Below, piece by piece: positions 19,795 to 36,220 of a stretch of DNA of 47,158 nt. The translations under genes were made by a program, and so were the position numbers. Source of the DNA: Candidatus Limiplasma pullicola (GTDB lineage: Bacteria; Bacillota; Clostridia; Christensenellales; Aristaeellaceae); assembly GCA_018710985.1 (NCBI GenBank), contig DVIV01000021.1, positions 1 to 47,158 on the forward strand, written 5' to 3'. The notes beneath the pieces are model-generated. The model saw only the letters and a program-made list of their open reading frames with translations. It was not told the origin of the DNA and made no database searches. Position 1 is the stretch's first letter, and every line of letters starts with the position of its first letter.

Positions 19795-21624
<1,830 letters not shown>

Positions 21625-21633
21625 GAGGGCGCC

Positions 21634-22017
21634 ATGGAGATCATCGAGGTGGCCGCCGGCGTGGTGCGCCGCGCGGACGGCCGCGTGCTCATCTGCCGCC
21701 GCACGGGGCGGCTGGAAGGGCTGTGGGAGTTTCCCGGCGGCAAGCTCGAACCCGGCGAAACCCCCGGCCAATGCCTTCGGCGCGAGCTGATGGAGGAACT
21801 GGACCTGCGCGTCCGTGCCGGAGAGGTGCTGGCCCGGGTCGAGCGCGAGGAGGACGGGCGCATGATCCGTCTGATCTTCGTCAGCGCCGTGCCCTGCGGG
21901 GTCGATGCGCTCACGCTGCATGTGCACGGCAAGGCCGCTTGGGCGCTTCCCTCCGAACTGGATCAGTACGCTTTCTGCCCGGGGGACCGGGCGTTTCTCA
22001 GCCGGGGGCTTTTATAG
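21634..22017 (+). CDS. Nudix hydrolase, MutT (8-oxo-dGTPase) type
   Basis: 127 residues. The Nudix box GGKLEPGETPGQCLRRELMEEL fits the consensus G-x5-E-x7-R-E-U-x-E-E. Length and flanks (WEFPGGKLE near residue 35) match MutT/CtpA-like enzymes that remove oxidised nucleotides from the pool. TAGGAGG before the ATG overlaps the tgt stop, so it ends the RNA-modification operon. Confidence 0.9.
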   Translation: MEIIEVAAGVVRRADGRVLICRRTGRLEGLWEFPGGKLEPGETPGQCLRRELMEELDLRVRAGEVLARVEREEDGRMIRLIFVSAVPCGVDALTLHVHGKAAWALPSELDQYAFCPGDRAFLSRGLL

Positions 22018-22048
22018 CGGCCCCCGGCCCGGTAAACAGGTCTTTTTT
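22001..22048 (+). terminator. Possible terminator after the Nudix gene
   Basis: GCCGGGGGC pairs with GCCCCCGGC across the stop codon. A run of six T follows only after a 12-base gap that itself can form a small hairpin, so it is not a textbook terminator. Confidence 0.4.
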
Positions 22049-22055
22049 CTCCCTA

Positions 22056-22082
22056 TTGACAAACGTTTTTTTTGCGTATAGT
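22056..22082 (+). promoter_or_regulatory. Promoter of the flavoprotein gene
   Basis: TTGACA (22056-22061) and TATAGT (22077-22082) with a short 15-base spacer. It is followed directly by the palindrome at 22086-22104. A suboptimal spacer is common in regulated promoters. Confidence 0.6.
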
Positions 22083-22085
22083 AAA

Positions 22086-22104
22086 AGTAGACCGGTCGTC
22101 TACT
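22086..22104 (+). promoter_or_regulatory. Palindromic operator, probably for the TetR regulator encoded downstream
   Basis: AGTAGACCGGTCGTCTACT has perfect 7-base arms (AGTAGAC and GTCTACT) around a 5-base centre. It begins 4 bases after the -10 box. The sequence is typical of TetR-family operators (TAGAC-N-GTCTA type), and a TetR gene follows the reductase gene. No copy was seen at the tetR promoter. Confidence 0.75.
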
Positions 22105-22126
22105 TAAGACTGAGAGGTGAAGTTCT

Positions 22127-23884
22127 TTGAAACGTCTCTGTGGCATCCTCATGGCACTGATTCTGCTTCTAAGTACCGTTGCCTGCGCCGAAGGCATGAC
22201 TGCCGGCACTTACAGTGCGGCGGCGCAAGGGTATCATGGCGATATTCAGCTGGAAGTGACCGTAGATGAAGATACAATCATCGACATTCAGGTCGTTTCC
22301 CATTCCGAGACAGAGGGCATCGGCGCCGCAGCACTCCCCCTGCTGGTAGAAACCGTGTTGGAAGCGCAGACCATCGGCATTGATGGAATCACCGGCGCAA
22401 CGGTGACCTCCGATGCTTTTAAGGCTGCCATGACCGATGCGCTGACGCAGGCTGGAGCAGATATGGAAAAGATGACCGCTCCTGTCTCTGCCGTCACGGA
22501 CAAGCAGGAAGAGACACTTACTGCCGACATTGTCGTAGTCGGCGCCGGTGCGGCCGGCCTGACCGCCGCGCTGACAGGCCTGCAGGAAGGAAAGTCCGTC
22601 ATTCTGCTAGAAAAAACCGCTTTTATCGGTGGCGCAAGCGCCACCGCAGGGGCAGGTACAATCGCCACTGGCTCCACCTGGCAGCAGGAGGACGGATATG
22701 AGGATTCTCCCGAAAAGCTGGTGGAGGACATGCTGGCAAACGGCCACAACAAAAACGACCTCGCCACCGTGGAGCTCTTCTCCCGCATCATCGGCCCCTC
22801 CTTTGACTGGCTGGTATCCGAGGACGGCGCTGCCGTTCCCTATACCCGTACCGGCAATCCCGTGCGTTATTACTCCGGCGCAGGACGCGGCGCAGGCGTG
22901 TGCAGCAGCTTAAATGACAGCTTCCTCGCCGCGGGCGGCACCCTGCTGCTGAGCACCCCCGCCACCGAGCTCATTGAGGAAGGCGGCGCCGTATGCGGCG
23001 TTGTGGCCGAAAGCAGCGATACGATTTACACCATCCGTGCCAAAGCCGTGATTCTGGCCTGCGGCGGGTTTGGCGCTAACGAGGATCTTCTCCCTGAAGA
23101 CCATTATGAGGATTACGTATATGCCGGACATGCCGGCGCTCAGGGCGACGCCATCCTCATGACGGAAAAACTGGACGCCGATCTGATTAACATGGAGTAT
23201 GTCAATATGCAGCCTCACTCCATGCGTTTCCCCGATGGCAACGGCCGCGGTATCGGCGGAGGCCCCGGCTACAAGTATGACGGCAGCTTTATGGTCAATC
23301 AGGATGGCGTGCGTTTCCTCAACGAGGTGGGCTCTGCCTGGGACAACACCCAACTGATGAAGCAGAACGAGCGCCAGTATCTCATCATGGATCAGACTTC
23401 CTTTGACGCCCTCAACGAAGCCAACAGCAGCATGTATACCGCCGAGGACGTGGCCCTGTGGACAGATGACAGCTACACCGGCGACCCCGTATACAAAAAA
23501 GGCGATACCATCGAAGACCTCGCGCAGAAGCTGAATCTGCCCGCCGATGCCCTAAAAGCGTCCGTGGAGGAATTCAACACGGCGTTCGCCTCCGGCCAGG
23601 CCGATGCGTTCGGCCGAACGCTTAACGCGGGGATCAGCGAGGAAGGGCCGTACTATGGACTGCAGGTTTTTGTTCGGTATTATGCCACCCTTGGTGGCCT
23701 GCATATCAATGATGACATGCAGGTACTTACCAAAGCCCAGGAACCCATTGAGGGCCTGTATGCGGCAGGTGAATGCGTGGGCGGCCTGGAAGGTGATGTC
23801 TATATGAGCGCAACGCTCTTTGGCTGGGCTATCGCCTCCGGCCATACTGCGGGCGCAGTAGCCGCCGCTTCCGTTTCCGATTGA
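22127..23884 (+). CDS. Secreted FMN-binding/FAD-dependent reductase (fumarate-reductase-like flavoprotein)
   Basis: 585 residues from a TTG start with AGAGGTGA upstream. Residues 1-22 are a signal peptide with an ACA cleavage site. About 28-110 is an FMN_bind domain; DGITGATVT (86-94) contains the Thr (about 92) that ApbE flavinylates. About 133-580 is a FAD-binding fumarate-reductase-like domain with GAGAAG (139-144) and the C-terminal GLYAAGECVGG. Relatives (UrdA, cinnamate and fumarate reductases) reduce organic acceptors outside the membrane, fed by flavin-based electron transfer. No apbE or membrane donor is in the window, and the substrate is unknown. Base composition is visibly lower in GC than the flanks. 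Confidence 0.88.
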   Translation: MKRLCGILMALILLLSTVACAEGMTAGTYSAAAQGYHGDIQLEVTVDEDTIIDIQVVSHSETEGIGAAALPLLVETVLEAQTIGIDGITGATVTSDAFKAAMTDALTQAGADMEKMTAPVSAVTDKQEETLTADIVVVGAGAAGLTAALTGLQEGKSVILLEKTAFIGGASATAGAGTIATGSTWQQEDGYEDSPEKLVEDMLANGHNKNDLATVELFSRIIGPSFDWLVSEDGAAVPYTRTGNPVRYYSGAGRGAGVCSSLNDSFLAAGGTLLLSTPATELIEEGGAVCGVVAESSDTIYTIRAKAVILACGGFGANEDLLPEDHYEDYVYAGHAGAQGDAILMTEKLDADLINMEYVNMQPHSMRFPDGNGRGIGGGPGYKYDGSFMVNQDGVRFLNEVGSAWDNTQLMKQNERQYLIMDQTSFDALNEANSSMYTAEDVALWTDDSYTGDPVYKKGDTIEDLAQKLNLPADALKASVEEFNTAFASGQADAFGRTLNAGISEEGPYYGLQVFVRYYATLGGLHINDDMQVLTKAQEPIEGLYAAGECVGGLEGDVYMSATLFGWAIASGHTAGAVAAASVSD

Positions 23885-23898
23885 GCCCTGTCCCTTAT

Positions 23899-23933
23899 AC
23901 CACCGGAGCACGCCCGCTCCGGTGGTCTTTTTT
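23899..23933 (+). terminator. Terminator of the flavoprotein gene
   Basis: ACCACCGGAGC, short loop, GCTCCGGTGGT, then C and six T. Confidence 0.93.
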
Positions 23934-23939
23934 CGTTTC

Positions 23940-23968
23940 TTGACATTCCTTGCAGCCGCAAATATAAT
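23940..23968 (+). promoter_or_regulatory. Promoter of the tetR gene
   Basis: Consensus TTGACA (23940-23945), 17 bases, TATAAT (23963-23968). The regulator is therefore transcribed separately from the reductase. Confidence 0.88.
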
Positions 23969-24018
23969 TAAGCAAAGATTTGACTCTTGCATTTAGCGGC
24001 AGATGGGGATGGAAACGG

Positions 24019-24579
24019 GTGGAAAAAAAGGAATTCATTCTTGTACAGGCTGAGCGTCTGTTTTCCGAAAAGGGCTACTATGGCATAGGCCTCACCGAGT
24101 TGCTCAAAGCATGCGATATCCCCAAGGGCAGCTTTTATTACTACTTTCCAAAAGGCAAATTGCAGCTGATTCAAGAAACGCTGGAGCATGCTTTTCGCCA
24201 TATGGAAGAGGGCATTCGTCTTATTCTGTCGCAGGCTTCCACAGCTGACGAGGCCTTTCAACACATGCTGTTGTCGCATGCAGACGGCATTGAGCAGGGA
24301 CGGCACTATGCTTCTCACTTTGTAGCGATGATTTCTATAGAATCGGTTTACCTCGATCCCAAGATTCATGAAACCTGTAAGCAGATATACCGGCAATGGG
24401 AACAGGTGTATGGAGACGTGCTTGTTGGCTTCGGCTACTCTCCGGAAGACACTCGCAGCCTGGTACCGCAACTGTTCGCGACAATTCACGGCGCCATGCT
24501 GATCGCCTGGATCCACCAGGACGGTTCGTCGCTTCGTGAGCTTGCACCCAAAGTAGCCTCATGGCTTGCAAAGCATTAA
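24019..24579 (+). CDS. TetR/AcrR-family transcriptional regulator
   Basis: 186 residues from a GTG start; a TTG further upstream would begin only 12 bases after the -10 box. The N-terminal helix-turn-helix is clear: ILVQAERLFSEKGYYGIGLTELLKACDIPKG and FYYYF. The C-terminal ligand domain (residues about 60-186) is of the YxaF/LmrA/QacR-like type. It probably binds the palindrome in front of the reductase gene and releases it when a small molecule binds, perhaps the reductase substrate. Confidence 0.88.
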   Translation: MEKKEFILVQAERLFSEKGYYGIGLTELLKACDIPKGSFYYYFPKGKLQLIQETLEHAFRHMEEGIRLILSQASTADEAFQHMLLSHADGIEQGRHYASHFVAMISIESVYLDPKIHETCKQIYRQWEQVYGDVLVGFGYSPEDTRSLVPQLFATIHGAMLIAWIHQDGSSLRELAPKVASWLAKH

Positions 24580-24616
24580 TTAGGACTCGACTAGTCACTT
24601 CCATCCTTCTTTTGCG

Positions 24617-24645
24617 TTGACACTTTCTTCGTCAGATGTTATACT
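24617..24645 (+). promoter_or_regulatory. Promoter of nagB
   Basis: TTGACA (24617-24622), 17 bases, TATACT (24640-24645), 85 bases upstream of the start codon. Confidence 0.85.
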
Positions 24646-24677
24646 CCCAATGTAAGATGTATTTCGCAAAAAGCGTT

Positions 24678-24691
24678 ATGCATCAATGCAT
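24678..24691 (+). promoter_or_regulatory. Inverted repeat in the nagB leader
   Basis: ATGCAT-CA-ATGCAT, two self-complementary hexamers, about 27 bases downstream of the likely transcription start. It could be an operator; it does not match the usual NagR (GntR-type) site, and no regulator gene is adjacent. Confidence 0.35.
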
Positions 24692-24729
24692 TCACAGCAT
24701 ACATATTATCATATGGAGGAGGCCGCATC

Positions 24730-25455
24730 ATGCAGATTCATCTCTACGACTCCGCCGCCCAGGTCGGTCAGGCTGCCGCGACGCTGATCGCCGCGCAGAT
24801 CATCGCCAAGCCAGACTCCGTGCTGGGCCTCGCCACCGGGTCCACCCCCATCCCCACCTATCAGGAGCTCATCCGCCTGTGCAAGGGCGGCGTGCTGGAC
24901 TTCTCCCGCGTGCGCTCCTTCAACCTGGACGAATACTGCAACCTGCCCGTGGATCACGAGCAGAGCTACCACAGCTTCATGCGCCAGCAGCTCTTTGACC
25001 ACATCAACATCGACCCCGCCAACACCCGCGTGCCCGACGGCAACGCCCGCGACCAGGCCGCTGAATGCGCCAGCTATGACACCGCCATCAACCAGGCCGG
25101 CGGTATCGACATCCAGCTGCTGGGCATCGGCCGCAACGGCCACATCGGCTTCAACGAGCCGGCCGACACCTTCGTCTACGGCTGCCACATCGTCAACCTC
25201 ACCCAGAGCACCATCGAGGCCAACCGCCGCTTCTTTGAAAGCGAAAGCGACGTTCCCCGCCAGGCCATCAGCCTGGGTATCGGCAGCATCATGAACGCCC
25301 GCCGCATTTTGCTCCTGGCCACCGGCGCAGACAAGGCCGAGGCCATCCGTGCCGCCGTCTATGGCGACATCAACCCCAAAACGCAGGCCAGCATCCTGCG
25401 CACCCATCCCAATGTGATCTTCCTTCTGGACAAGGCGTCCGCGGGGCTGCTCTGA
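24730..25455 (+). CDS. nagB: Glucosamine-6-phosphate deaminase
   Basis: 241 residues, the normal length. LATGSTPIPTYQEL is the phosphate/substrate loop, FNLDEY holds the catalytic Asp, and GIGRNGHIGFNEPA is the family signature with the active-site His. It converts glucosamine-6-phosphate to fructose-6-phosphate and ammonia, linking amino-sugar use to glycolysis. GGAGGAGG precedes the ATG. nagA is not adjacent. It is a single-gene unit with its own promoter and terminator. Confidence 0.96.
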   Translation: MQIHLYDSAAQVGQAAATLIAAQIIAKPDSVLGLATGSTPIPTYQELIRLCKGGVLDFSRVRSFNLDEYCNLPVDHEQSYHSFMRQQLFDHINIDPANTRVPDGNARDQAAECASYDTAINQAGGIDIQLLGIGRNGHIGFNEPADTFVYGCHIVNLTQSTIEANRRFFESESDVPRQAISLGIGSIMNARRILLLATGADKAEAIRAAVYGDINPKTQASILRTHPNVIFLLDKASAGLL

Positions 25456-25469
25456 CAATCGCACATCCG

Positions 25470-25504
25470 GGCCGGAGGGCGGAGAGCCGCCTTCCGGCCT
25501 TTTT
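25470..25504 (+). terminator. Terminator of nagB
   Basis: GGCCGGAGGGCGG, loop AGAG, CCGCCTTCCGGCC, then TTTTT. Confidence 0.93.
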
Positions 25505-25510
25505 GCCGGT

Positions 25511-25539
25511 TTGTCATTCCCTGCCGTATATGCTATACT
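25511..25539 (+). promoter_or_regulatory. Promoter of the YesN/YesM/pseudo-ABC/PAP2 operon
   Basis: TTGTCA (25511-25516), 17 bases, TATACT (25534-25539). It is the only good promoter seen before the four-gene unit, whose genes overlap or are 12 bases apart. Confidence 0.8.
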
Positions 25540-25579
25540 GAGGTTCCAAACGCTGCATGCCTGGAAAGGAGGATTCGCC

Positions 25580-27151
25580 GTGCTCAAGGTAGTGATCGCC
25601 GATGATGAGGCGCGCATTCTGAGCCTGATCCGCCTGCTGCCGGATTGGGACGCGCTGGGCATGGAGGTGGCCGGCACTGCGGCAAACGGGCTGGAGGCGC
25701 TGGCGCTGATCGAGCGCGAAAAGCCCGATATTCTCATCACCGACATCCGCATGCCCGGCTGCCAGGGGCTGGAGCTGATCGAGCGGGCCCGGCGGGCCGT
25801 GCCCGATATCGAAATCATCATCATCAGCGGCTACGCACATTTCGAGTACGCGCAGACCGCCATCAAGCTGGGCGTGGGCGACTATCTGCTCAAGCCCATC
25901 AAAAAGGACGAGCTGACCGCCACCCTTTCCAAGCTGGCGCAGCGCTGCCGCACCAAGCACCCCAGCGCCTCCGGCGTGGCACCGGAGGGAGAGGGCCGGG
26001 CCAGGGCCGCCCTTCGGGAAAAGCTGGTGCGCGAAGCCGCGTCAGGGCGCTCCTTTCCTGCCTCGGTCGAGGAGCTGGTGCAGACCTACGGCTTCGGCAT
26101 GCCGGAGGGCACCTATCGCGCCTTTGTGCTCAAGCTGGACTATCAGGGCCTGGGCCGTGACCCGCTGGAGATCATCCACGGCAAGGTGCGCGAGCTGATC
26201 GCTCCGCTCATGGCCCAGCCGGACGCACAGCTGGCCTGCGCGCACGAGGACGACCGGCTCACCGGCGTGGTCTGCGCCCCGCCCGACGTGCAGGCGGATG
26301 TCCGGCGTGCGCTTCGCCAGGTGCTCAACCAGCTGGAGGCCCAGAAGGGGCTGCTGGGGCCCGTATCGTTTTCGCTGTCGCTCAGCGAAGCCGGCGCCTC
26401 CCCTGAGCAGATTCCCGCGCTGGTTCGCCAGGCCGGCCAGCTGATCGACGAGCGGCTGCTGGAGGGGACCGGGCGTCTGCTGGAGGGGGCGTCCACCCCG
26501 TCCGGTCTCAGGGACGCCCGACTGCTGGAGCGCTACGGCCACGAGATCGAAAAGGCTCTTTCCACGCTGGATACGGGGCTTGCAGTCGACTGCACCAACG
26601 TCCTGGCGCGCGAGGCGATGTGCTTCCCGGGCGTACGCGGACATGAGCTGACGGAGCTGGTGCGCTCGGCGGGCAGCCTGTTTGCGCTGCGCCTGGGGCT
26701 GGACGGCGACGAGGAGGCGGCCTTTGCGCGGGAGGCGGGCCTTTCCAGCCGCGCGGACGAGCTGTTTGACTGCCTGATTCGCTTCGAAAAAAAACACATG
26801 GAAGCCGAGGACATCCGCCGCCGCAGCGAGGCCCTGCGCCCCATCCGCATTGCCAAGCAGTACGTGCAGGAGCATTACAGCCAGTCCATCACCCTGGAGG
26901 ACGTGTGCGCCGCCACGGGCTTCAGCGTCAGCTATTTCAGCGCGCTGTTCAAAAAGGAGAGCGGCGAGGGCTTTTCCAAGTACCTCACGGGGGTTCGCAT
27001 GGAGCGGGCCAAGGAGCTTTTGCAGGAAAGCAGCCTGCCGGTTTCCGAGGTCTGCGCACAGGTGGGCTACAGCGATCTCAAGCATTTCACGCAGACCTTC
27101 AAAAAATATACCAGTCTGAGTCCCGCGCAGTACCGCAAGCTCTACGGCTGA
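25580..27151 (+). CDS. AraC-type response regulator (YesN family)
   Basis: 523 residues from a GTG with AAAGGAGG upstream. Residues 1-120 are a receiver domain with acidic pocket DDE (8-10), phospho-acceptor Asp55 in ITDIRMPG and the conserved Lys in LLKPIKK. A long middle region (about 130-410) has no motif I recognise. The C-terminus (about 425-523) has a double AraC helix-turn-helix (ITLEDVCAATGFSVSYFSALFKKESGEGF, SEVCAQVGYSDLKHFTQTFKK). It is phosphorylated by the kinase encoded 12 bases downstream and should activate transport or catabolism genes; no target genes are obvious nearby. Confidence 0.92.
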   Translation: MLKVVIADDEARILSLIRLLPDWDALGMEVAGTAANGLEALALIEREKPDILITDIRMPGCQGLELIERARRAVPDIEIIIISGYAHFEYAQTAIKLGVGDYLLKPIKKDELTATLSKLAQRCRTKHPSASGVAPEGEGRARAALREKLVREAASGRSFPASVEELVQTYGFGMPEGTYRAFVLKLDYQGLGRDPLEIIHGKVRELIAPLMAQPDAQLACAHEDDRLTGVVCAPPDVQADVRRALRQVLNQLEAQKGLLGPVSFSLSLSEAGASPEQIPALVRQAGQLIDERLLEGTGRLLEGASTPSGLRDARLLERYGHEIEKALSTLDTGLAVDCTNVLAREAMCFPGVRGHELTELVRSAGSLFALRLGLDGDEEAAFAREAGLSSRADELFDCLIRFEKKHMEAEDIRRRSEALRPIRIAKQYVQEHYSQSITLEDVCAATGFSVSYFSALFKKESGEGFSKYLTGVRMERAKELLQESSLPVSEVCAQVGYSDLKHFTQTFKKYTSLSPAQYRKLYG

Positions 27152-27163
27152 GGAGGCACAGGC

Positions 27164-28177
27164 ATGAAACAACGCTGGCGGATGCTTTCCTTCCGTGTGA
27201 GTGCGCTGGGCGCGCTGGCTCTGGCGGCGCTGGTGCTCGCGGCCGTCCTGCTGATTCGGCGCGACCCGCTTGCCGCCGCGCTGCTGCTGTGCTGTGCGGC
27301 CGGCCTGGGGGTGGCGGGCTGGCTGTGCGTGATCCGGCCCTATCGGGCGCAGGAACGGGCCATGCTGATGTTTCTGGAGGGGTACACGCCCCCGCGTCAG
27401 GACGCCGCCTGCGCCCTCTCCCCCGCGCAGGCGAGGCTTCAGGAGCAGGTGGCCGCCATCCTCAATCCCGAACAGCTCTTCAACCTCAACAAACGACAGG
27501 CCCAGTATCAGGCCCTGCAAAACCAGATCAACCCGCATTTCCTCTACAATACGCTGGAGAGCATCCGCGGCGAGGCGCTGCTTTCCGGCATGGACACCAT
27601 CGCCGACATGACCGAGGCGCTGGCCACGTTTTTCCGCTACACCATCAGCAAGGTGGAAAACCTGGTGTCCGTGGAGGAGGAGCTGCAAAACTGCGAAACC
27701 TATTTCCACATTCAGCGCTACCGCTTCGCCGACCGGCTGGAGCTGCACATCAGCTGCGACCCCGCCGACCGCGAGGCCATCTACCGCTGCCGCCTGCCCA
27801 AGCTGACCATCCAGCCCATCGTGGAAAACAGCATCATCCATGGCACGGAGCTGAAACTGGGCACCGGCCACATCCGCATCCAGCTGGAGCGCACCCAGAA
27901 GCGCCTGCTCATCCGCATCTCGGACGACGGCGTGGGCATGGATGCCGAAACGCTGTTTCGCCTCAACGAGCGGCTGGGCAAAAGCGCCATCGCCCAGCCC
28001 CCGCAGAGCCGGGGCGGCCTGGCGCTGGCCAACGTGGACAGCCGCATCCGCCTGCTCTTTGGCGACAAGTACGGCCTGCACGCCTTTTCCACACCGGGCG
28101 TGGGCACGGACGTGGAGATCACGCTGCCCATGATCGCCAGCGACCGCGACATTCCCAACCGGGAGGCGCTTGTGTGA
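27164..28177 (+). CDS. LytS/YesM-type sensor histidine kinase without an extracellular sensor
   Basis: 337 residues, short for a YesM kinase (usually near 600). Two transmembrane segments (about 11-31 and 37-57) are separated only by a tight turn, so almost nothing is exposed outside, and no HAMP domain is evident. The kinase core is intact: His125 in NQINPHFLYNTLES, the N box IVENSIIHGTE and the G box ISDDGVGM, with later glycine motifs (RGGLALANVDSR). With no periplasmic sensor, the input must come from a partner protein, most simply the degenerate ABC protein encoded by the overlapping next gene (GTGA overlap). Confidence 0.9.
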   Translation: MKQRWRMLSFRVSALGALALAALVLAAVLLIRRDPLAAALLLCCAAGLGVAGWLCVIRPYRAQERAMLMFLEGYTPPRQDAACALSPAQARLQEQVAAILNPEQLFNLNKRQAQYQALQNQINPHFLYNTLESIRGEALLSGMDTIADMTEALATFFRYTISKVENLVSVEEELQNCETYFHIQRYRFADRLELHISCDPADREAIYRCRLPKLTIQPIVENSIIHGTELKLGTGHIRIQLERTQKRLLIRISDDGVGMDAETLFRLNERLGKSAIAQPPQSRGGLALANVDSRIRLLFGDKYGLHAFSTPGVGTDVEITLPMIASDRDIPNREALV

Positions 28178-29673
28178 GAAACGAAGTGCTTCGCCTGGAA
28201 AAGGTCACCCTGCGCGAACAGGGCGTGACCCTGCTGGACAACTTGAACCTGCACATCTTCGAGGGCGAGATCATGGGGCTGGTGCCCATCGACACCCACG
28301 GTCTGTCCGCCCTGTGCGACCTTCTGCGCGAAAATGTGCCTCTTCACTACGGCTATGTCTTTTACCGGGAAAAGCTGATCAATACCTGGCGCTCGCCCCG
28401 GCCGCACTACAACCGCATCAGCGTAATCCAGGCCAAGAGCTGTCTGGTGGACGGGCTGACCGTCGCGGACAACATCTTTGTGCTCCGGCCGGGATTTCGC
28501 GGCCGGCTGATGCGGCCGTCCGCGTTCCGGCGGCAGCTGATGCCCTTTATTCACAGCATCGGCATTCCCATCGACGCCGATGCGCGCGTGGAGGATCTCA
28601 CCGTATTTGAACGCTTTGTGGTGGAGCTGCTCAAGGCTGTGGTAGCGGGAAGCCGGCTGATCGTGCTCAACGAAATCAGCACGCTGATCAACGAGGCGGA
28701 GCTTGGCAAGCTGCACGCCATCCTCCGCCACTACGCGGCGGAGGGCGTCTCCTTTTTGTATGTGTGCTTTCATTTCGAGGAGCTTTTGCAAATCAGCGAC
28801 CGCACCGCCCTGATGATGCAGGGCCGCGTGGTGAAGCTGCTGGAGGGCAGCGAAATGATCCCCCAGTCGCTGCTGCCCTATTCCGCCCCCTATGAGCAGA
28901 TGGTGGCCAGCCAGCTGGCGCGCGGCGCGCACCAGATCGGCGGGGAGGTCTTCAGCGCCCGGCTGCCGGAGGCCGCGGTCGGGGGGCTTGCCTTCTCGGT
29001 GCGGGCGGGCGAATGCCTGGTGCTGCAGGATCTGGACAATCATTTCATCGACGGCTTTCTGGGGGTGCTGTCGGGGGCGCATCCCCCGCAGGGAACCCGC
29101 CTTTTGCTCTGCGGGCGTCCCTTCCGGCCGGGACATGACCGGCGGCTGGCGGTCATCCAGGATCAGCCGGGCCGCACGATGGTGTTTCCGGGGCTGAACT
29201 ACCTGGAAAACCTCTGCTTCACCATGGATCACCGCATCCCCTCCCTCTGGCGAAGCGGCCGCGTCAAGCGGGGCCTGCGCCGCGCCTATACCGAGTGGCT
29301 GGGGCCGGACCTGCTGGAGCGCCGCGTGGAGGACCTGACCGAAACCGGGCGCTGCGAGCTGGTGTATCGCCGCATCCTGCTGCAGCGGCCGGACGTGGTG
29401 TTCTGCGTGCAGCCCTTCCGCATGGCGGATGTGGCCATGCGCATGAGCATCTGGCGGCTATTGGAGGAGCTGTTGGACCGGGGCGTGGCGGTGGTGATCC
29501 TGGCGGTTAACCTGGCGGACTCGCTCTCTCTGGCTGACCGCCTGATTCGCGTCCGGCGTGGGCAGCCGCAGGAGGCCTTTGACCGCGTGCACTTCAATGA
29601 CCTGCCCGCCGACGTGCCATGGCGCAGCCTGTATCAGGGAATCCCCAACCGTGAAAAGGAGGAATTGCCGTGA
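28174..29673 (+). CDS. Degenerate tandem ABC ATPase (RbsA/MglA-like) with all catalytic motifs lost
   Basis: 499 residues, full length for a two-domain sugar-importer ATPase, from a GTG overlapping the kinase stop. It can be aligned by eye along RbsA. First domain: Walker A is LVPIDTHGLSAL (Lys replaced by Leu), the Q-loop Gln remains (VIQ), the signature is DLTVFERF instead of LSGGQ, Walker B is LIVLNEIS (Asp to Asn), and the switch His is lost (LYVCFHF). Second domain: no Walker A (LVLQDLDNHFIDGFL), signature DLTETGRCEL, and VVFCVQPF in place of Walker B. ATP hydrolysis is therefore very unlikely. No permease or binding protein adjoins it. I infer a signalling or scaffold role for the adjacent kinase. 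Confidence 0.85.
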   Translation: MRNEVLRLEKVTLREQGVTLLDNLNLHIFEGEIMGLVPIDTHGLSALCDLLRENVPLHYGYVFYREKLINTWRSPRPHYNRISVIQAKSCLVDGLTVADNIFVLRPGFRGRLMRPSAFRRQLMPFIHSIGIPIDADARVEDLTVFERFVVELLKAVVAGSRLIVLNEISTLINEAELGKLHAILRHYAAEGVSFLYVCFHFEELLQISDRTALMMQGRVVKLLEGSEMIPQSLLPYSAPYEQMVASQLARGAHQIGGEVFSARLPEAAVGGLAFSVRAGECLVLQDLDNHFIDGFLGVLSGAHPPQGTRLLLCGRPFRPGHDRRLAVIQDQPGRTMVFPGLNYLENLCFTMDHRIPSLWRSGRVKRGLRRAYTEWLGPDLLERRVEDLTETGRCELVYRRILLQRPDVVFCVQPFRMADVAMRMSIWRLLEELLDRGVAVVILAVNLADSLSLADRLIRVRRGQPQEAFDRVHFNDLPADVPWRSLYQGIPNREKEELP

Positions 29674-30608
29674 CGTTTCTCAGGATGCTGGAATCCATCC
29701 GCACCCCGCTGGGGGAACAGATAGCCGCCGCCGTGACCCTGCTGGGCGAGGAGACCTTCTTCATGCTGGTGGGGCTGGCGCTGGTGTGGTGCTTTGACAA
29801 GCGCTGGGGGTTTCGCCTGCTGTTTGTGGGCCTGACGGGCACGGTGCTCAACCAGCTGCTCAAGGCGGTGTTTCTCATTCCCCGCCCGTGGGTGATCGAC
29901 CCGGAGTTCACCATCGTCGAGGCGGCCCGCGCGGGCGCGACGGGCTATTCCTTCCCCAGCGGGCACACGCAGTCCGCCGCTTGCGTGCTGGGCATGCTGG
30001 CCCTGTGGGTGCGCGACCGGGTCTTTACCGTCCTGTGCGTGCTGGGGGTGCTGGCGGTGGCGTTTTCGCGCATGTACCTGGGCGTGCACACGCCGCTGGA
30101 CGTGGGCGTGTCGCTGGTGACGGGCGCGGCCACGGTGGCTGTGATGCCCCGCCTGTTTGACCGCGCGGAAGCGTCCGTGCGCGGCCGGCGGTGCATGGCC
30201 GCGGGACTTATGGGCTTTGCGCTGCTGTTGCTGCTCTACGTGCTTTTCTGGCCCAGGCGGGAGGCCAATGTGGCCGAGTTTGACGCGCATGGCGTGGAAA
30301 GCGCGTGGACGCTGTTTGGCACCATGCTGGGACTGCTGGCGGCCTGGTATGCCGACCGTCGCCGGCTGCATTTTGACACCCGCGCCGTATGGTGGGCGCA
30401 GGCGCTCAAGCTGGTGCTGGGCCTGGCGCTGGTGATGGGCGTGCGCGTGGGGCTCAAGGCAGGGCTTGCCGCGCTCTTTGGCGACGCGCCGTTTACCGAC
30501 GGCGTGCGCTACCTGTGCATCGCGCTCACGGGCGGCATTCTGTGGCCCATGACCTTTGGCTTCTGGAGCCGTCTGGGCCGGGGACAGCGCGCCGGCGCGA
30601 AGGGCTAG
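29670..30608 (+). CDS. PAP2-family membrane phosphatase
   Basis: 312 residues, several transmembrane segments. The three phosphatase motifs are present in order: K-x6-RP in KAVFLIPRP, PSGH in FPSGHTQSA, and SR-x5-H-x3-D in SRMYLGVHTPLD. Such enzymes dephosphorylate lipid phosphates such as undecaprenyl diphosphate or phosphatidate on the outer face of the membrane. The C-terminal third holds extra hydrophobic segments with no known motif. A GTG start overlaps the stop of the pseudo-ABC gene, with AAAGGAGG upstream, so it belongs to the signalling operon, which is unusual for this enzyme. Confidence 0.9.
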   Translation: MTFLRMLESIRTPLGEQIAAAVTLLGEETFFMLVGLALVWCFDKRWGFRLLFVGLTGTVLNQLLKAVFLIPRPWVIDPEFTIVEAARAGATGYSFPSGHTQSAACVLGMLALWVRDRVFTVLCVLGVLAVAFSRMYLGVHTPLDVGVSLVTGAATVAVMPRLFDRAEASVRGRRCMAAGLMGFALLLLLYVLFWPRREANVAEFDAHGVESAWTLFGTMLGLLAAWYADRRRLHFDTRAVWWAQALKLVLGLALVMGVRVGLKAGLAALFGDAPFTDGVRYLCIALTGGILWPMTFGFWSRLGRGQRAGAKG

Positions 30609-30619
30609 GGCCCGTTTTT
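30602..30619 (+). terminator. Weak terminator after the PAP2 gene
   Basis: A short stem GGGC/GCCC overlapping the stop codon, followed by G and TTTTT. Weak, but no better structure lies before the next promoter. Confidence 0.35.
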
Positions 30620-30630
30620 CCGGCAATCCC

Positions 30631-30659
30631 TTTACAATCCCGGCCGCAGGCTATATAAT
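30631..30659 (+). promoter_or_regulatory. Promoter of the panT-coaX-hom unit
   Basis: TTTACA (30631-30636), 17 bases, perfect TATAAT (30654-30659). The start codon is about 107 bases downstream of the expected transcription start; the leader can form GC-rich stems but matches no riboswitch I know. Confidence 0.8.
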
Positions 30660-30772
30660 GCAGGCGGGGCGCGCCGCCATCCGCGCAGGAGGCGGACGCA
30701 TCCCCCGTATCCCGGTTTCCCGTCCCTGGTATCGTCGGGTATCCCAACAGAACTCGAACGGAGGAAAACATC

Positions 30773-31468
30773 ATGAAAAACGTCGTCCCGTCCGCCCGTC
30801 GGCAGAGCGAGGCCATCCGCAGAATGGTCATTGCCGCCATGCTCAGCGCCATCACCGCCGTGCTCACCTTCACCCCCATCGGCATGATTCCCCTGCCTCC
30901 CCCGCTGCTCAGCGCCACGACCGTGCACCTGCCGGTCATCCTGGCCGCTTTGGTCGAGGGACCCTTGGTGGGGCTAGTGGTGGGGCTGGTGTTCGGCCTG
31001 TGCAGCTTCATCCGCGCGTGGGAGACCGGTTCGGTGGGGCTGACGCTGTTCTTCCGCAACCCGCTGGTGAGCGTGCTGCCCCGGCTGCTGGTCCCGCTGG
31101 CGGCGCTGGGCGTATACCTGCTGTGGAAGCGCCTCGCGCCCAGGGGCGCGGTATCCGACAAGGTGGGCGCTGCCGTGGCTTCCGCCGCCGGATCGGTGGC
31201 CAATACGGTTTTGTGCCTGGGCATGCTGCTTCTCATCTATGGGGCGGACCTGACCCAGCTGATCAACGGCATGATCTCCGCCGGCAGCGCGGACGCCGTC
31301 TATCTCAACGACGCGGGCGCGTGGCTGGTAACCGCCGTGGGCCTGCCCAACGGCATCGGCGAGGCCATCGTGGCCGCGGTGATCGTACCGATGATCAAAC
31401 TTGCGGTGGAGGCGGTCATGCGCCGCTCGCGCCGCGCGCCCGCCGGGCGCGCCCACCCGAACAAGTAA
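30773..31468 (+). CDS. panT: ECF transporter substrate-binding (S) component, probably for pantothenate
   Basis: 231 residues, about six hydrophobic segments. The N-terminal MVIAAMLSAITAVLTFTPIGMIPLP resembles the Ala-rich first helix by which S components contact the ECF-T subunit, and the general layout is that of the PanT/FolT-like group. The substrate is inferred from the neighbour: coaX, encoding pantothenate kinase, starts 13 bases after its stop. The energising module (EcfA, EcfA', EcfT) is not in the window. A CGGAGGAAAA ribosome-binding site precedes the ATG. Confidence 0.75.
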   Translation: MKNVVPSARRQSEAIRRMVIAAMLSAITAVLTFTPIGMIPLPPPLLSATTVHLPVILAALVEGPLVGLVVGLVFGLCSFIRAWETGSVGLTLFFRNPLVSVLPRLLVPLAALGVYLLWKRLAPRGAVSDKVGAAVASAAGSVANTVLCLGMLLLIYGADLTQLINGMISAGSADAVYLNDAGAWLVTAVGLPNGIGEAIVAAVIVPMIKLAVEAVMRRSRRAPAGRAHPNK

Positions 31469-31481
31469 GGAGTAGACCGCC

Positions 31482-32249
31482 ATGATCTTTACCATGGACG
31501 TTGGCAACACCAACATCAAAACCGCGCTGTTCGAGGGGCGTGAGATGCGCAACTACTGGCGCATCTCCACCAACACCTCCTACACCTCGGATGAATACGG
31601 GCTGATTCTGGAGGGGCTTTTCGCGCGCGCAGGGCTTTCGCTGGACGCGGTGGAGGGCATCGTGATATCCAGCGTGGTGCCCACCATCAACTTCACCCTG
31701 GAGCACATGTGCAAAAACTACTTCGGCAAGATGCCCATGACCGTGGCGCCCGGCATCAAGACGGGCATCAACCTCAGGTATGAAAATCCGCGCGAACTGG
31801 GCAGCGACCGCATTGCCAACGCCGTGGCCGCGCAGGCGGAATACGGCGGGCCGTGCATCTTCATCGACTTTGGCACGGCGACCACGTTCGGCGCGATTGA
31901 CCAGCAGGGGGCGTTTGCGGGCGGATGCATCTGTCCGGGCCTGAAATTGACCAGCGAGGCGCTGGTCAGCGGCACGGCCAAGCTGCCCCGCTTTGAGCTG
32001 GTCAAGCCCGATCACGTCATCGGCCGCACCACGGTGACCAACCTGCAGGCCGGCGTCATCTACGGCTACATCGGGCAGGTGAATTACCTGGTGCAGCGCT
32101 TCCGCAAGGAGCTTGGCGCGCCGGACGCGCTGGTGGTGGCGACGGGCGGCATGGCCCGCCTGGTGGCCGACGAGGTCGGGACCATCGACAGGCTGGACGG
32201 CATCCTCACCCTCAAGGGGCTGCGCCTGATCTACGAACGCAACCGCTGA
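31482..32249 (+). CDS. coaX: Type III pantothenate kinase
   Basis: 255 residues, normal length. The ASKHA-fold motifs are visible: MDVGNTNIKTALFEG (phosphate 1), FIDFGTATTFGAID (phosphate 2) and the catalytic-Asp region ENPRELGSDRIAN. It phosphorylates pantothenate in the first step of coenzyme A synthesis. The upstream S component would supply pantothenate, so the pair makes a small salvage module. Confidence 0.95.
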   Translation: MIFTMDVGNTNIKTALFEGREMRNYWRISTNTSYTSDEYGLILEGLFARAGLSLDAVEGIVISSVVPTINFTLEHMCKNYFGKMPMTVAPGIKTGINLRYENPRELGSDRIANAVAAQAEYGGPCIFIDFGTATTFGAIDQQGAFAGGCICPGLKLTSEALVSGTAKLPRFELVKPDHVIGRTTVTNLQAGVIYGYIGQVNYLVQRFRKELGAPDALVVATGGMARLVADEVGTIDRLDGILTLKGLRLIYERNR

Positions 32250-32271
32250 CGCGGGAAAGGATGATTGAACC

Positions 32272-33549
32272 ATGGACAGGACCATTACCATCGGCTTTCT
32301 GGGCTGCGGCAATGTGGGCGGGGGCGTGTGGAAGCTGCTCAGCGGCTTTGCCGACGACATCGCGCACCGCACGGGCCTTCGCTTTTCCATCAAGCGGGTG
32401 CTGGTGCGCTCGCTTGCGAAAAGGCGAGATATCGACTTTCCCGACGGCGTTCTGACCGACCGCGCGGAGGATGTGCTGGATGATCCCGAGATCTCCATCG
32501 TATTGGAGTTCCTGGGCGGCGAGGAGCCTGCCCACCGGTGGATCACCATGGCGCTGGAGCGCGGCAAAACCGTGGTCACGGCCAACAAGGTCGCCTTTGC
32601 CCTGCATTGGCACGAGCTGCAGAAGGCCGCCAAGCAAAGCGGCGCGGGCCTGTATTACGAGGCGGCGGTGTGCGGGGCCATTCCCATCATCCACACGCTG
32701 GAGGAAAGCCTGCAGGCCAACCGCATCAGCTATATCTACGGCATCGTCAACGGCACCACCAACTACATCCTCACCCGCATGAGCCGGGAGGGCGCGGAAT
32801 ACGCCGACGTGCTGGCCGACGCCCAGCGCCTGGGCCTGGCCGAGCCCGACCCCGCCAGCGACGTGGAGGGCCTGGACGCCGCCTACAAGCTCAGCATTCT
32901 GGCCAGCCTGGCCTTCCACGGGCGCGTGCCGTTTGAAAACGTGTATGTGGAGGGCATCACCCAGGTGCAGGCCGAGGACATCCGCTGCGGGCAGGAGCTG
33001 GGCTACACGCTCAAGCTGCTGGCCATCGCCAAGCGCGACGGGCTTCATGTGGAGACCCGCGTACATCCCACCTTCATCCGCAACGACCATCCCCTGGCCA
33101 ACATCTCCGGGGCGTTCAACGCGGTGTTCCTCCACGGCCATGCCTGCGGGGAGATGATGTTCATGGGCCGCGGCGCGGGCGACCTGCCCACGGCCAGCGC
33201 CATCGTGAGCGACCTGGTGCGCGCCGCCTCCGCGCAGAAGCACCTCTACCCCACCTTCGACAACGAGCTGCACCCCGCCGTTTCCCTGCAAAACAACACC
33301 GACTGGCGCTGCGCCTTCTATACCCGCATGCTCGCCAAGGACGAGCCCGGCGTGCTCAGCCGCATCGCGCAGACCTTTGCCGACCACGGCGTGAGCATCG
33401 CGGCGATGCAGCAGAAGGGCGAACAGCGCGACGGGCGGGTCACGGTGGTGTTCATCACCCACCAGGCCAGCGAGCGCGACATGCAGAAAGCCATCCTTGA
33501 AATCCGGCCGGAGGTGGCCACGGTGGAAAGCCTGCTGCGCGTGGAATGA
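32272..33549 (+). CDS. hom: Homoserine dehydrogenase
   Basis: 425 residues. N-terminal NAD(P)-binding motif GFLGCGNVGGGVWKLL, the catalytic domain with YIYGIVNGTTNYIL and DPASDVEGLDAAYK (the catalytic Lys-Asp region), and a C-terminal ACT domain (from about residue 350, PGVLSRIAQTFADHGVSI) for feedback control by threonine or related amino acids. It makes homoserine for threonine and methionine synthesis. It follows coaX by 22 bases and may share its transcript. thrB, thrC and lysC are not adjacent. Confidence 0.95.
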   Translation: MDRTITIGFLGCGNVGGGVWKLLSGFADDIAHRTGLRFSIKRVLVRSLAKRRDIDFPDGVLTDRAEDVLDDPEISIVLEFLGGEEPAHRWITMALERGKTVVTANKVAFALHWHELQKAAKQSGAGLYYEAAVCGAIPIIHTLEESLQANRISYIYGIVNGTTNYILTRMSREGAEYADVLADAQRLGLAEPDPASDVEGLDAAYKLSILASLAFHGRVPFENVYVEGITQVQAEDIRCGQELGYTLKLLAIAKRDGLHVETRVHPTFIRNDHPLANISGAFNAVFLHGHACGEMMFMGRGAGDLPTASAIVSDLVRAASAQKHLYPTFDNELHPAVSLQNNTDWRCAFYTRMLAKDEPGVLSRIAQTFADHGVSIAAMQQKGEQRDGRVTVVFITHQASERDMQKAILEIRPEVATVESLLRVE

Positions 33550-33589
33550 TGCGCGGCCGTCACCTGTAACCTGATTAGAATGGCAAAGC

Positions 33590-33624
33590 GAGGGAGAGCG
33601 TACTTACACAGTGCGCTCTCCCTC
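33590..33624 (+). terminator. Terminator-like hairpin after hom
   Basis: GAGGGAGAGCG pairs perfectly with CGCTCTCCCTC, extended by TAC/GTG inside. The T-run behind it is short (CTTATG), so termination may be incomplete. Confidence 0.55.
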
Positions 33625-33671
33625 CTTATGATCTGCGACAGCCGGAGTTCTGCAGTATGGAAATGTCTACT

Positions 33672-33700
33672 TTTGCAAACTGCGCTACTCACAGTATCAT
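33672..33700 (+). promoter_or_regulatory. Promoter inside the hom / surface-protein gap
   Basis: TTTGCA (33672-33677), 17 bases, TATCAT (33695-33700). Transcription would begin at about 33707, two bases before the outer stem of the candidate RNA. Confidence 0.5.
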
Positions 33701-33706
33701 TTGAGG

Positions 33707-33930
33707 ACGCATGCCGCAAGGGAAGAGAAAAAGGACAAAGGTCGGCAGGGCTGAGCCACCCTGCCGGACAGTCTGAGGAGCGGAGCGGCATGCCTGCACC
33801 TATGTTAAAAAGCTTTTTATATAAGGCTTTGCGGACCGGAAGCAAAACATGGCTACCTGCCTCGAAGGGGGAAGCCGCCGGGTACGTAGCCCTGCGTTTC
33901 GTGTTATGGCAACAGTCGTATACTTGGGAA
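33707..33930 (+). ncRNA. Candidate structured non-coding RNA of unknown family
   Basis: No credible protein gene lies between hom and 34059. After the promoter at 33672-33700, the RNA would open with GCATGCCGC (33709-33717), which pairs perfectly with GCGGCATGC (33785-33793). Inside is a perfect 8-bp hairpin CGGCAGGG/CCCTGCCG (33743-33766). Further stems are TTTGC/GCAAA (33828-33846) and GGCTAC/GTAGCC (33851-33901). A-rich single-stranded joints separate them. There is no clear terminator, so the 3' end is a guess. The surface-protein promoter lies downstream of it, so it is not simply that gene's leader. I cannot name a family. Confidence 0.4.
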
Positions 33931-33946
33931 AAAATACATTTCTATA

Positions 33947-33975
33947 TTGTACAATGTCAATGTTTGTGATATATT
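33947..33975 (+). promoter_or_regulatory. Promoter of the surface-protein gene
   Basis: TTGTAC (33947-33952), 17 bases, TATATT (33970-33975), in an AT-rich stretch; the start codon is 84 bases downstream. Confidence 0.65.
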
Positions 33976-34058
33976 ACATGGTGAAGGTAAATTTTCAAAA
34001 GTAGAGGTTTGTATACTCATGCCGCCTCTGCTTGGGAAAAGGAAAGGGAGAGGACCTC

Positions 34059-35516
34059 ATGCTGAAGAAAATCACATGGCTGACCTGCGCCGTGCTGCTG
34101 TGCGCGCTGCTCACCGCTCTGCCTGCGGGTCAGGCGGCGGTCGCTGCAGAGACAGTCGAAAATGTTTCAACCATTAGTTTTATCGGCGGAACGACAACGC
34201 AGGAAGATATTGATAAAGCATTAGGAGAGGGGGCGATTTCGTATACCTCCGAGCAAATTGATGGGGAAACCGTATACACGATCAAGCTCCTGAAAAACAT
34301 TACTATGAAAGCAGGGTGTGATGTCCGTATCGGAGAATATAGGGAAAACGGTCCGGCTCTACCGCAGATGATTTTGGATCTTAACGGCTGCACGATAACA
34401 AGCCAGAGCATAGGCCTTATAAATTACGGAGACCTGATCATCAGAGACACTTCCGACGCTAAGACAGGTACTATTAAATACTCAACGACAAGTGATAAAA
34501 GCTCCTTGGTAGCTATTTCGCATAAAGGAGGTCTGCTGGAAATAGAGGGAGGCACATTCATCTGCGAAAGCGGGTATGCCTTTACCGGCTATGTAGCGGC
34601 GGTCAGCACACAAGCCGGTGCTACCACCCACATTAAGGGCGGTACGTTTGTCAGCAATTCCAGCGCGGTGCTTTCCTCAGGTGAAACGGTTGTGTATGGC
34701 GGTACATTTAATGCGCCTTACGGAATGTATGCAAAATCCGCTAATGGCGTTCCCGGAACGATCACAATTCCGGAGGAATCTACCGCTGTTGTAAATGCAA
34801 GCTCTTTTGCACTCGTAATACAGCGCGATAATAACTGCGACGGCAAAATATCTGCGGCGGGCGGCACCTATAACGCTTCGAACATAGTTGGCGGAGTAAA
34901 ATCGCCGGATACTGCAACTGGTGTCAGCATCAGCGGCGGCACCTTTTCCGAATCGCCCGTGCGGTACACCGGGGACACTGTGATACTCAGCGGCGGCGAC
35001 TATTACGTAGGCGCGCAGGCCAACGACGTGCTGAGCAACCCCAACACGAAAGAAGTGACCGTGCTTCAGGCCAAGGGTGAGCTGAAGGTAGCCGACGGAA
35101 TCAAGCTGACAAACAGCACCGACAGCGCCATCACCGTCAACGGCAACTTGATTGAAGACGACTTTTCTCTGCTGATTCACGACTGGGAGGGGGTCCCCGA
35201 GAAGGCTCCCACCTGCACCGAAGCGGGGCATGCCGCCTACTGGAAATGCCTTTACTGCGGCCTGATGCAGGATCGGAACGGAAATACGCTGACCGCCGTA
35301 CCCGTCATCCCGGCCACGGGCCACAGCTATCAGAACGGCGTCTGCACGGTCTGCGGCGCGCGTGATGATGGGCCTGCGCCCACGCCCACCCCCGCGCCCG
35401 CAGCACCCCCCAAGACCGGCGACAGCGCGCATCCGCTGCTCTGGTCCGTGCTGCTGCTGGCGGCGCTGCTGGGCGGCGGGCTGCTGTGCACGGGGCTTCG
35501 CAAGCGCTTCCGCTGA
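34059..35516 (+). CDS. Sortase-anchored surface protein with a beta-helix-like repeat region
   Basis: 485 residues. Signal peptide about 1-31 (cleaved after AAVAA). Residues about 35-350 hold repeated GGTF elements (LEIEGGTF, HIKGGTF, VVYGGTF, SISGGTF) typical of right-handed parallel beta-helix adhesins. Next are two CxxC-bearing modules (APTCTEAGHAAYWKCLYCG; GHSYQNGVCTVCGA) common in secreted clostridial proteins. A Pro/Thr linker leads to the sorting signal PPKTGD (450-455), a hydrophobic helix and the tail RKRFR. It is probably joined to the cell wall by a sortase, perhaps the class B enzyme at 14.3 kb. The first two thirds are lower in GC than the rest of the window, suggesting acquisition. 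Confidence 0.85.
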   Translation: MLKKITWLTCAVLLCALLTALPAGQAAVAAETVENVSTISFIGGTTTQEDIDKALGEGAISYTSEQIDGETVYTIKLLKNITMKAGCDVRIGEYRENGPALPQMILDLNGCTITSQSIGLINYGDLIIRDTSDAKTGTIKYSTTSDKSSLVAISHKGGLLEIEGGTFICESGYAFTGYVAAVSTQAGATTHIKGGTFVSNSSAVLSSGETVVYGGTFNAPYGMYAKSANGVPGTITIPEESTAVVNASSFALVIQRDNNCDGKISAAGGTYNASNIVGGVKSPDTATGVSISGGTFSESPVRYTGDTVILSGGDYYVGAQANDVLSNPNTKEVTVLQAKGELKVADGIKLTNSTDSAITVNGNLIEDDFSLLIHDWEGVPEKAPTCTEAGHAAYWKCLYCGLMQDRNGNTLTAVPVIPATGHSYQNGVCTVCGARDDGPAPTPTPAPAAPPKTGDSAHPLLWSVLLLAALLGGGLLCTGLRKRFR

Positions 35517-35536
35517 CGGTTAAAAAGCATAACAAG

Positions 35537-35590
35537 ACCGCCCCCGCGTCCTCTCTTTCCGGAGGGACGCGGGGGCGGTTTCTTTGTTTC
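35537..35590. terminator. Bidirectional terminator between the surface-protein and LUD genes
   Basis: A perfect 15-bp stem (ACCGCCCCCGCGTCC and its complement, 35537-35579). On the plus strand TTTCTTTG follows; on the minus strand the run is weaker (CTTGTTATG). Confidence 0.85.
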
Positions 35591-35605
35591 CTTATTATGC
35601 GCCGG

Positions 35606-36220
35606 TCAGTAGCCCAGTGCTTCCTCCACGAAGATCACCGTCATATGCCGGTTGCGCGGCACGCGGTCCACCACCAGCGTCAGGCGGCAGATGCTGTTTT
35701 CGCACTCGTCGCCCCCGCAGTTGCCGGTGCGCGCGCAGGGCGTGTCAATGCCCAGGCGGCGCGTGTTCTGCGGGCAGGCGGTCTTTTTGATGCGGGCCAC
35801 GGCGGTGTTGATGCCGCCGTCCACCACCTTGGAGTGGCTGATTACAAAATAGACCTGTTCGGGGCCGTCGCACACGGCGCCCACGCGGTTGCCGTTGCCG
35901 TCCACCAGCACCAGCTTGCCCTTGCGCGTAACGGCGTTGGCCGAGGACAGATACACGTCGGCCCTGCGGCTGTTTTCGCGGATCATGGGCACGTCCTCGG
36001 GCTTCGCGCCCCAGCTGGTGTACACCTTGCAGCCCTTTTCCGCCAGCGCCGGCAGCACGCCGGTATCGCGCACGCTCACCGAGCCGCCCACGCCCACCGA
36101 CTGCCCCGCGTCGATGTGGGCCAGTAGATAGTCGCGCGCCTCGGCAGCGGTGCGCACCTCAATGACTTCAAAGCCGTTTTTCTTCATCCCTTCAACTGCC
36201 TGCTCAAGCAATGCATCCAT
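35606..36220 (-). CDS. LUD-domain protein (LutC/YkgG-like)
   Basis: 204 residues, one LUD domain (DUF162): VGVGGSVSVRDTGVLPAL, DVYLSSANAVTRKGKLVLVDGNGNRVGAV, and a C-terminal cysteine cluster around CARTGNCGGDEC. LutC-type proteins assist lactate oxidation with LutA and LutB, but stand-alone LUD proteins are common in Clostridia and their role is unclear. No lutAB is present. GGGAGAGG lies before the ATG, and a promoter is at 36264-36292. The cysteines could bind a metal or cluster; this is inference. Confidence 0.85.
   Translation of the reverse strand: MDALLEQAVEGMKKNGFEVIEVRTAAEARDYLLAHIDAGQSVGVGGSVSVRDTGVLPALAEKGCKVYTSWGAKPEDVPMIRENSRRADVYLSSANAVTRKGKLVLVDGNGNRVGAVCDGPEQVYFVISHSKVVDGGINTAVARIKKTACPQNTRRLGIDTPCARTGNCGGDECENSICRLTLVVDRVPRNRHMTVIFVEEALGY

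Follow-up and report, generated by a model that had tools for sequence, protein, structure and literature searches.

A degenerate RbsA paralogue in a YesM/YesN gene unit as a probable third component of sugar-uptake sensing with one RbsABC importer

Known transporter-coupled kinases and the locus in Candidatus Limiplasma pullicola

Histidine kinases of the YesM type usually carry an extracellular sensor domain. In UhpC-UhpB, a relative of a transporter serves as the receptor of the kinase, UhpC being related to a membrane carrier and not to an ATPase. In Ruminiclostridium cellulolyticum, cuaDSR is expressed constitutively, and the target of activation by CuaR is the region upstream of cuaA, as passages of PMC5663094 and PMC10384115 describe. 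In CuaDSR and XylFII-LytS, as far as these passages go, a YesN/AraC-type regulator and a kinase with an extracellular domain lie beside an ABC sugar importer operon, and the third component is a duplicated transporter part, namely an extracellular binding protein. BceS-like transporter-coupled kinases, as portrayed in parts of PMC7828314, have no extracellular sensor and take their signal from an ABC transporter; in BceAB-BceS the sensor is the working antibiotic transporter itself, whose permease carries a large extracellular loop.

We analysed a stretch of 47,158 nucleotides (the window; contig DVIV01000021.1, genome G000) in which a response regulator gene, a kinase gene and the gene for a tandem ABC protein, here called pseudo-RbsA, form a trio (Table 1). 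The module to which they belong resembles CuaDSR and XylFII-LytS, as outlined in PMC5663094 and PMC10384115, in pairing a YesN/AraC-type regulator and a kinase with an ABC sugar importer operon and in having a duplicated transporter part as third component. Here, however, that part is a cytosolic, dead relative of an ABC ATPase, and the kinase has no extracellular domain. The latter feature is shared with BceAB-BceS as characterized in parts of PMC7828314, but the module has another kinase family, another type of transporter and, in addition, a dead ATPase. Unlike a BceB-type permease with its large extracellular loop, the module permease of L018 is an RbsC-like BPD_transp_2 protein of 353 aa. 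With the RbsA/MglA importer ATPases, pseudo-RbsA has layout and descent in common, but it has lost the ATP site and its gene sits in a sensor unit. We regard the module as three-component sugar sensing, a known kind, with an unusual third component. In the top-ranked titles and abstract openings of the open-licence literature searched, we found no description of a YesM/YesN unit that contains a pseudo-ATPase of the RbsA type; one may exist elsewhere.

Table 1. Genes of the putative module and adjoining features, in window positions
Feature	Position	Strand	Basis or remark
nagB (glucosamine-6-phosphate deaminase)	24730..25455	+	co-directional neighbour, window and G007; putative module member
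YesN-type response regulator (receiver + AraC-type HTH)	25511..27151	+	domain search
YesM-type histidine kinase (PF06580, HATPase_c), membrane hairpin only, without extracellular sensor domain	27164..28177	+	domain search, hydropathy
pseudo-RbsA (tandem ABC protein, 499 aa, no usable ATP site)	28174..29673	+	ORF, homology, motif alignment, dN/dS
PAP2-family phosphatase gene	29670..30608	+	4-bp overlap with pseudo-RbsA gene

Domain searches place the regulator and the kinase (His_kinase, PF06580) in the YesM/YesN family. Judging from the sequence, the true start of the regulator may be a GTG near 25580. Hydropathy profiles place hydrophobic segments only before residue 93 in all 24 full-length kinases, and the NPHF box follows at residue 123-160, so there is no room for an extracellular domain in the module kinase. 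Two membrane helices without an extracellular domain are likewise a feature of BceS-type intramembrane-sensing kinases. Used as a query against 316 genomes of the class, a module kinase gave 14 matches, 12 of them in genomes with pseudo-RbsA and weaker ones in G111 and G187. The PAP2 gene probably lies outside the module, because among the loci examined it adjoins pseudo-RbsA only in the window and in the sister genome G007. Further downstream, the gene for the substrate-specific component of an ECF transporter (30773-31468) is unrelated as far as could be seen.

ATP-site motifs, selection and phylogeny of pseudo-RbsA

The pseudo-RbsA reading frame occupies exactly 28174-29673, with a GTG start and 499 codons plus a stop, and overlaps by 4 bp both the end of the kinase gene (28177) and the start of the next gene (29670). 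Compared with its best nine paralogues in the same genome, all RbsA-type ATPases, the protein is 20-25% identical (E down to 1e-28), with homology over the full length. It scores 26.5 bits against ABC_tran, barely above the cut-off of 25. This full-length tandem ABC homology is accompanied neither by the ATP-site motifs nor by the curated score of a functional RbsA-type protein: the top NCBIfam score is 118.6 bits where the cut-off is 699, and no NCBIfam cut-off was reached among the best 25 of 101 models. The fold predicted from a six-sequence alignment is a poor model (mean pLDDT 56.9; residues 1-117 below 50); Foldseek matched it to tandem ABC ATPases, which is consistent with the sequence homology and carries no evidential weight.

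Which motifs are lost, and which of the losses are abnormal? We aligned 23 full-length homologues from 23 genomes, the open piece of the frame-broken homologue in L021 and 18 intact RbsA proteins from the same loci. Domain 1 of the window protein lacks Walker A, the Walker B Asp and the switch His, and domain 2 lacks LSGG and the Walker B Asp-Glu. The same holds throughout the family: GxxGxGK(S/T), the Walker B Asp and the switch His of domain 1, and LSGG and the Walker B Asp-Glu of domain 2, occur in 0 of the 23 full-length homologues. The 18 intact RbsA proteins retain their motifs, one of them ending at a contig edge before the domain-2 signature. The initial annotation had described a full-length RbsA-like protein without a usable ATP site, and the alignment bears this out. 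Part of the losses it enumerated are normal for the type, because intact RbsA also reads LAVSKQQ instead of LSGGQ in domain 1 and GAGRTE, without Lys, as Walker A of domain 2. The absence of domain-1 LSGGQ and of the domain-2 Walker A Lys is likewise reported for B. subtilis RbsA/NupO in passages of PMC11466899. As judged from the alignment, pseudo-RbsA is abnormal in that Walker A and the switch His are missing from domain 1 and LSGGNQQ from domain 2, together with the Walker B motifs of both domains. A "VIQ Q-loop" that had been read as retained is not one: its Q precedes the column of the RbsA Gln by one, and at that Gln column the window protein has Ala and only 4 of 23 homologues have Gln. 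Lys is found at the domain-1 Walker A position in 10 of 23, with the P-loop glycines gone, and many homologues have a His one residue past the switch position.

Pseudo-RbsA proteins also have conserved residues of their own, e.g., FLYICNHHEE and FCxQPFxxAD, which we take as a sign of a different job. Might the protein sense nothing and merely hold or stabilise the kinase as a passive scaffold? Its fast divergence would fit such a role, the mean distance over 17 genomes being 0.91 for pseudo-RbsA and 0.37 for RbsA (RbsC, 0.40; kinase, 0.69; regulator, 0.92, so that regulator and kinase are fast too). Many residues at the former active-site segments are nevertheless constant across the 23 genomes, and we consider a scaffold very improbable.

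Fast divergence would also suit a decaying gene, as would the homologue in L021, which is frame-broken. The selection data speak against this. The sister gene in G007 (an uncultured Eubacteriales MAG whose contig is also L016) is 94% identical in the same gene context, and dN/dS between the two genomes is 0.154 by NG86 and about 0.09 by YN00. The NG86 value indicates purifying selection; for the same genome pair it is 0.101 for the kinase, 0.121 for the regulator, 0.090 for nagB and 0.149 for PAP2. In the tree, a branch supported at 100/100 separates the 23 pseudo-RbsA proteins from all 34 intact RbsA rows, as expected of one ancient clade; the 23 importer-associated RbsA proteins, that of the window's genome included, form another group (100/99). 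A pseudogene or relaxed selection is ruled out by this ratio, which is not near 1, together with the single well-supported clade, and the earlier reading of an intact frame, overlapped on both sides and free of decay, holds. Nor is an ordinary ATPase likely to have been misread, given that Walker A, DEP and His of domain 1 are intact in eight other RbsA-type ATPases that we read from this genome. Decay or misreading, taken together, is scarcely credible.

Several observations touch on the history of the family. The L021 homologue (L021:8001-9456, contig BCAA01000006.1) is split across frames, by decay or by sequencing error. Degenerate RbsA relatives lie at L124:9667-11154 (G111) and L125:4950-6443 (G187), each beside a related kinase, a regulator and an intact RbsABC; that of G187 retains more motifs. 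Both group on the pseudo-RbsA side (97/95), on very long branches, and they are possible intermediates. With the G187 paralogue as query against 16 genomes, no second strong homologue was found outside G187; the next best matches, 31-34% identical, are in the ordinary RbsA range, and several are intact module RbsA proteins. We therefore do not claim a wider family. The genome of G187 is unusual in its expansion of such proteins, with 46 RbsA-type matches at E up to 1e-45 in 3 Mb.

Linkage to one RbsABC importer and a tandem-repeat promoter element

The initial annotation saw no permease or sugar-binding protein beside pseudo-RbsA. This is true of the genes examined in the window, where neither was found among 10 proteins scanned or in a seed search of positions 18001-38000, but it does not extend to the genome, which holds the RbsABC on another contig, or to most relatives. 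We counted 25 genomes: 22 G-labelled ones plus L019 (Caloramator quimbayensis), L020 and L021, with L016, L017 and L018 duplicating G007, G204 and G319, respectively, by contig. The gene order kinase, pseudo-RbsA, intact RbsA occurs in 18 of the 25, and RbsC and RbsB come after RbsA in 15 of these 18. Among the 18, the regulator of L020 is off-contig, pseudo-RbsA of L021 is frame-broken, and RbsA of G289 and G132 is cut by a contig end, with their RbsC at the end of another contig. Elsewhere, RbsABC lies one gene away on the other side (G005) or on a separate contig (G000, G007, G028 and G137); in G062 the contig ends at pseudo-RbsA. In G377, the regulator and kinase genes are grouped with RbsABC, and pseudo-RbsA stands alone at L041:8615-10069 with the family motifs retained. 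This linkage, with the RbsABC elsewhere in the window's genome, rules out pseudo-RbsA as an isolated oddity without an importer. Homologues with Walker A and B next to permeases had been named at the outset as contrary evidence; permease genes do adjoin in the 18 genomes, and the motifs are kept in none of the 23 proteins.

By ORF starts, the kinase and pseudo-RbsA genes overlap or are at most 23 bp apart (leaving aside L021, as well as W and L049 with their long frames), and the gap from pseudo-RbsA to RbsA is 61-312 bp, or 661 bp in L018. Catabolic neighbours differ among the loci: nagB (window, G007), nagA (L059), iolE (L042), D-lyxose isomerase (L046, L048) and ROK and SIS proteins (L018). 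The RbsC proteins of G000 (L079) and G007 (L080) are identical; their dS is 0.019 and that of the trio genes 0.15-0.25, which may reflect a recent exchange of the importer region.

Does the association extend beyond gene order? With RbsC of G005 as probe, the module RbsC was found in 4 of 40 relatives, exactly the four with a pseudo-RbsA orthologue (a fifth match, G015, hits via intact RbsA). Among 391 genomes of the class, RbsC occurs in 14 and pseudo-RbsA in 14, with 13 common to both; among 398 of the phylum, each occurs in the same seven. Class and phylum were scored on the best 3 candidates per genome for pseudo-RbsA and the best 5 for RbsC. Fisher tests give 1e-5 (relatives), 3e-22 (class) and 3e-15 (phylum), values that are not independent probabilities because the genomes are related and the samples share members. 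As the searches covered relatives, class and phylum, statements on spread apply within the phylum. Two genomes are discordant. In G062, which is 85% complete, the trio occurs without a detected RbsC, and a contig end truncates pseudo-RbsA. G314 has the module RbsABC without pseudo-RbsA and instead a ROK-family gene directly upstream of RbsA. The importer thus occurs without pseudo-RbsA, and the reverse was seen only in the incomplete G062. The genes for regulator, kinase and pseudo-RbsA thus make up a single unit, retained in many clostridia with one particular RbsABC importer, a tie by gene order, co-occurrence and shared promoter element that the initial annotation had overlooked.

Proximity to RbsA in 18 of 25 genomes and descent from a subunit that docks on RbsC could also point to a transport brake, a protein that displaces RbsA on RbsC and lowers import, its link to the kinase being mere co-regulation. 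Gene spacing argues otherwise, pseudo-RbsA belonging to the tight unit of the kinase and not to that of RbsABC. Moreover, G314, which has RbsABC and no kinase, has no pseudo-RbsA either. We hold a brake to be improbable.

The gap before RbsA contains a tandem direct repeat, approximately TTCCAAAgaAtacCCCCTaA twice, 21-22 bp apart (20 bp in L081, going by the best score there). With a matrix trained on six genomes, the repeat was found before RbsA in 22 of 22 genomes that have the trio and upstream sequence, a count that omits G204, the twin of G319. Sixteen of these were not used for training: 14 exceed 300 of 300 resamples of their own sequence and two exceed 299, some of the 16 being close kin of training genomes (L059, L021, L037). 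The repeat also precedes RbsABC away from the trio in G007, G137 and G028, and it is present in G377 and in G005, the weakest at 12.4. G314, which lacks pseudo-RbsA, also lacks the repeat before its RbsA: the score there is -10, a value that 287 of 300 resamples attain. In 18 of 22 genomes, a -10-like box, taken as the best match and without a control, lies 18-21 bp past the second repeat, which puts this repeat over the -35 position, where an activator would bind. In CuaDSR and XylFII-LytS, according to the cited passages, the regulator activates the importer operon; for the present module, binding of the regulator to the repeat is predicted.

How specific is the element? Scanning both strands of 33 loci (475 kb) gave 28 sites scoring at least 17, of which 21 precede a module RbsA and seven fall in L021, L036, L041, L045, L046, L078 and L125. 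Two of these seven, L021:3499 (-), 32.9, and L036:14190 (+), 19.2, precede a large gene (about 990 aa, signal-like start) that is a possible second target of the regulator. In G137, the site at L045:9899 (+), 19.1, coincides with the end of the gene for pseudo-RbsA, though RbsABC of that genome is on another contig, and the repeat-like site in L125 (18.1) lies between the two operons. No repeat was found in the window (best 6.3) or in the trio contigs of G007 and G028. RbsA of the window's genome begins at a contig end, and for this organism the operator claim therefore leans on the sister genome G007.

Proposed mechanism and its alternatives

What does a dead ATPase do for a kinase? Pseudo-RbsA is most likely a signalling part, not a motor. 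It very probably has a regulatory role with RbsABC as the target. We favour, with some reserve, a three-component sugar-uptake sensor in which the dead RbsA paralogue couples the importer to the sensor-less kinase. The regulator would bind the repeat element and switch on RbsABC, acting in trans in the organism of the window. Pseudo-RbsA, which cannot hydrolyse ATP, would dock at the place of RbsA on the RbsC dimer, on RbsA itself, or on both, and would contact the kinase, which would receive its signal via the membrane hairpin and the cytosolic face only. The state of the sugar-loaded RbsB-RbsC complex would in this way be relayed through pseudo-RbsA to the kinase. That contact with the importer subunits provides the input has, in our estimation, about an even chance. 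Columns invariant in RbsA are kept in pseudo-RbsA at 0.51 and 0.47 in the post-Q-loop (permease-contact) segments, 0.46 in the domain-1 H-loop and 0.29 elsewhere. Docking would be favoured by these modestly better-kept post-Q-loop segments and by descent from an RbsC-docking subunit.

The distance data count against docking. Partial distance correlations of pseudo-RbsA are 0.37 with RbsA, 0.34 with the regulator, 0.32 with the kinase and 0.04 with RbsC, so that this measure failed to mark the RbsC permease as a special partner. A direct ligand sensor would agree with the correlations to kinase and regulator: pseudo-RbsA would bind a cytosolic nucleotide, sugar or sugar phosphate in a remodelled cleft and control the kinase itself, the importer being its target only. 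The Lys at the P-loop place in 10 of 23 homologues and the position of pseudo-RbsA apart from the importer operon in G377 fit as well. The P-loop glycines, the Walker B Asp and LSGG are, however, lost in all 23, and ligand binding leaves unexplained why an importer ATPase was chosen and why the protein is restricted to one RbsC type; we judge it rather unlikely. The initial annotation had likewise proposed an importer ATPase converted into a nucleotide- or partner-sensing subunit. A non-catalytic partner of a YesM/YesN pair, intact and under selection, stands; for nucleotide sensing we found no evidence.

The dead ATPase might dock on the permease that its living paralogue uses, part of the importer pool then being a non-transporting receptor that drives the kinase. 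One ABC importer would exist in two forms, one for transport and one for signalling, according to which ATPase subunit it carries, an idea we put forward tentatively and at less than even chances.

In the known three-component sugar sensors, a duplicated binding protein works outside the cell; here, a duplicated and catalytically dead ATPase seemingly takes that part inside. Such a module would account for the perception of sugar by a kinase without a sensor domain, and it would clearly exemplify, in bacteria, the use of an ABC pseudoenzyme for signalling. With a defined promoter element and natural arrangements in which importer and trio are linked, unlinked or replaced, the family offers a test bed for transporter-coupled sensing.
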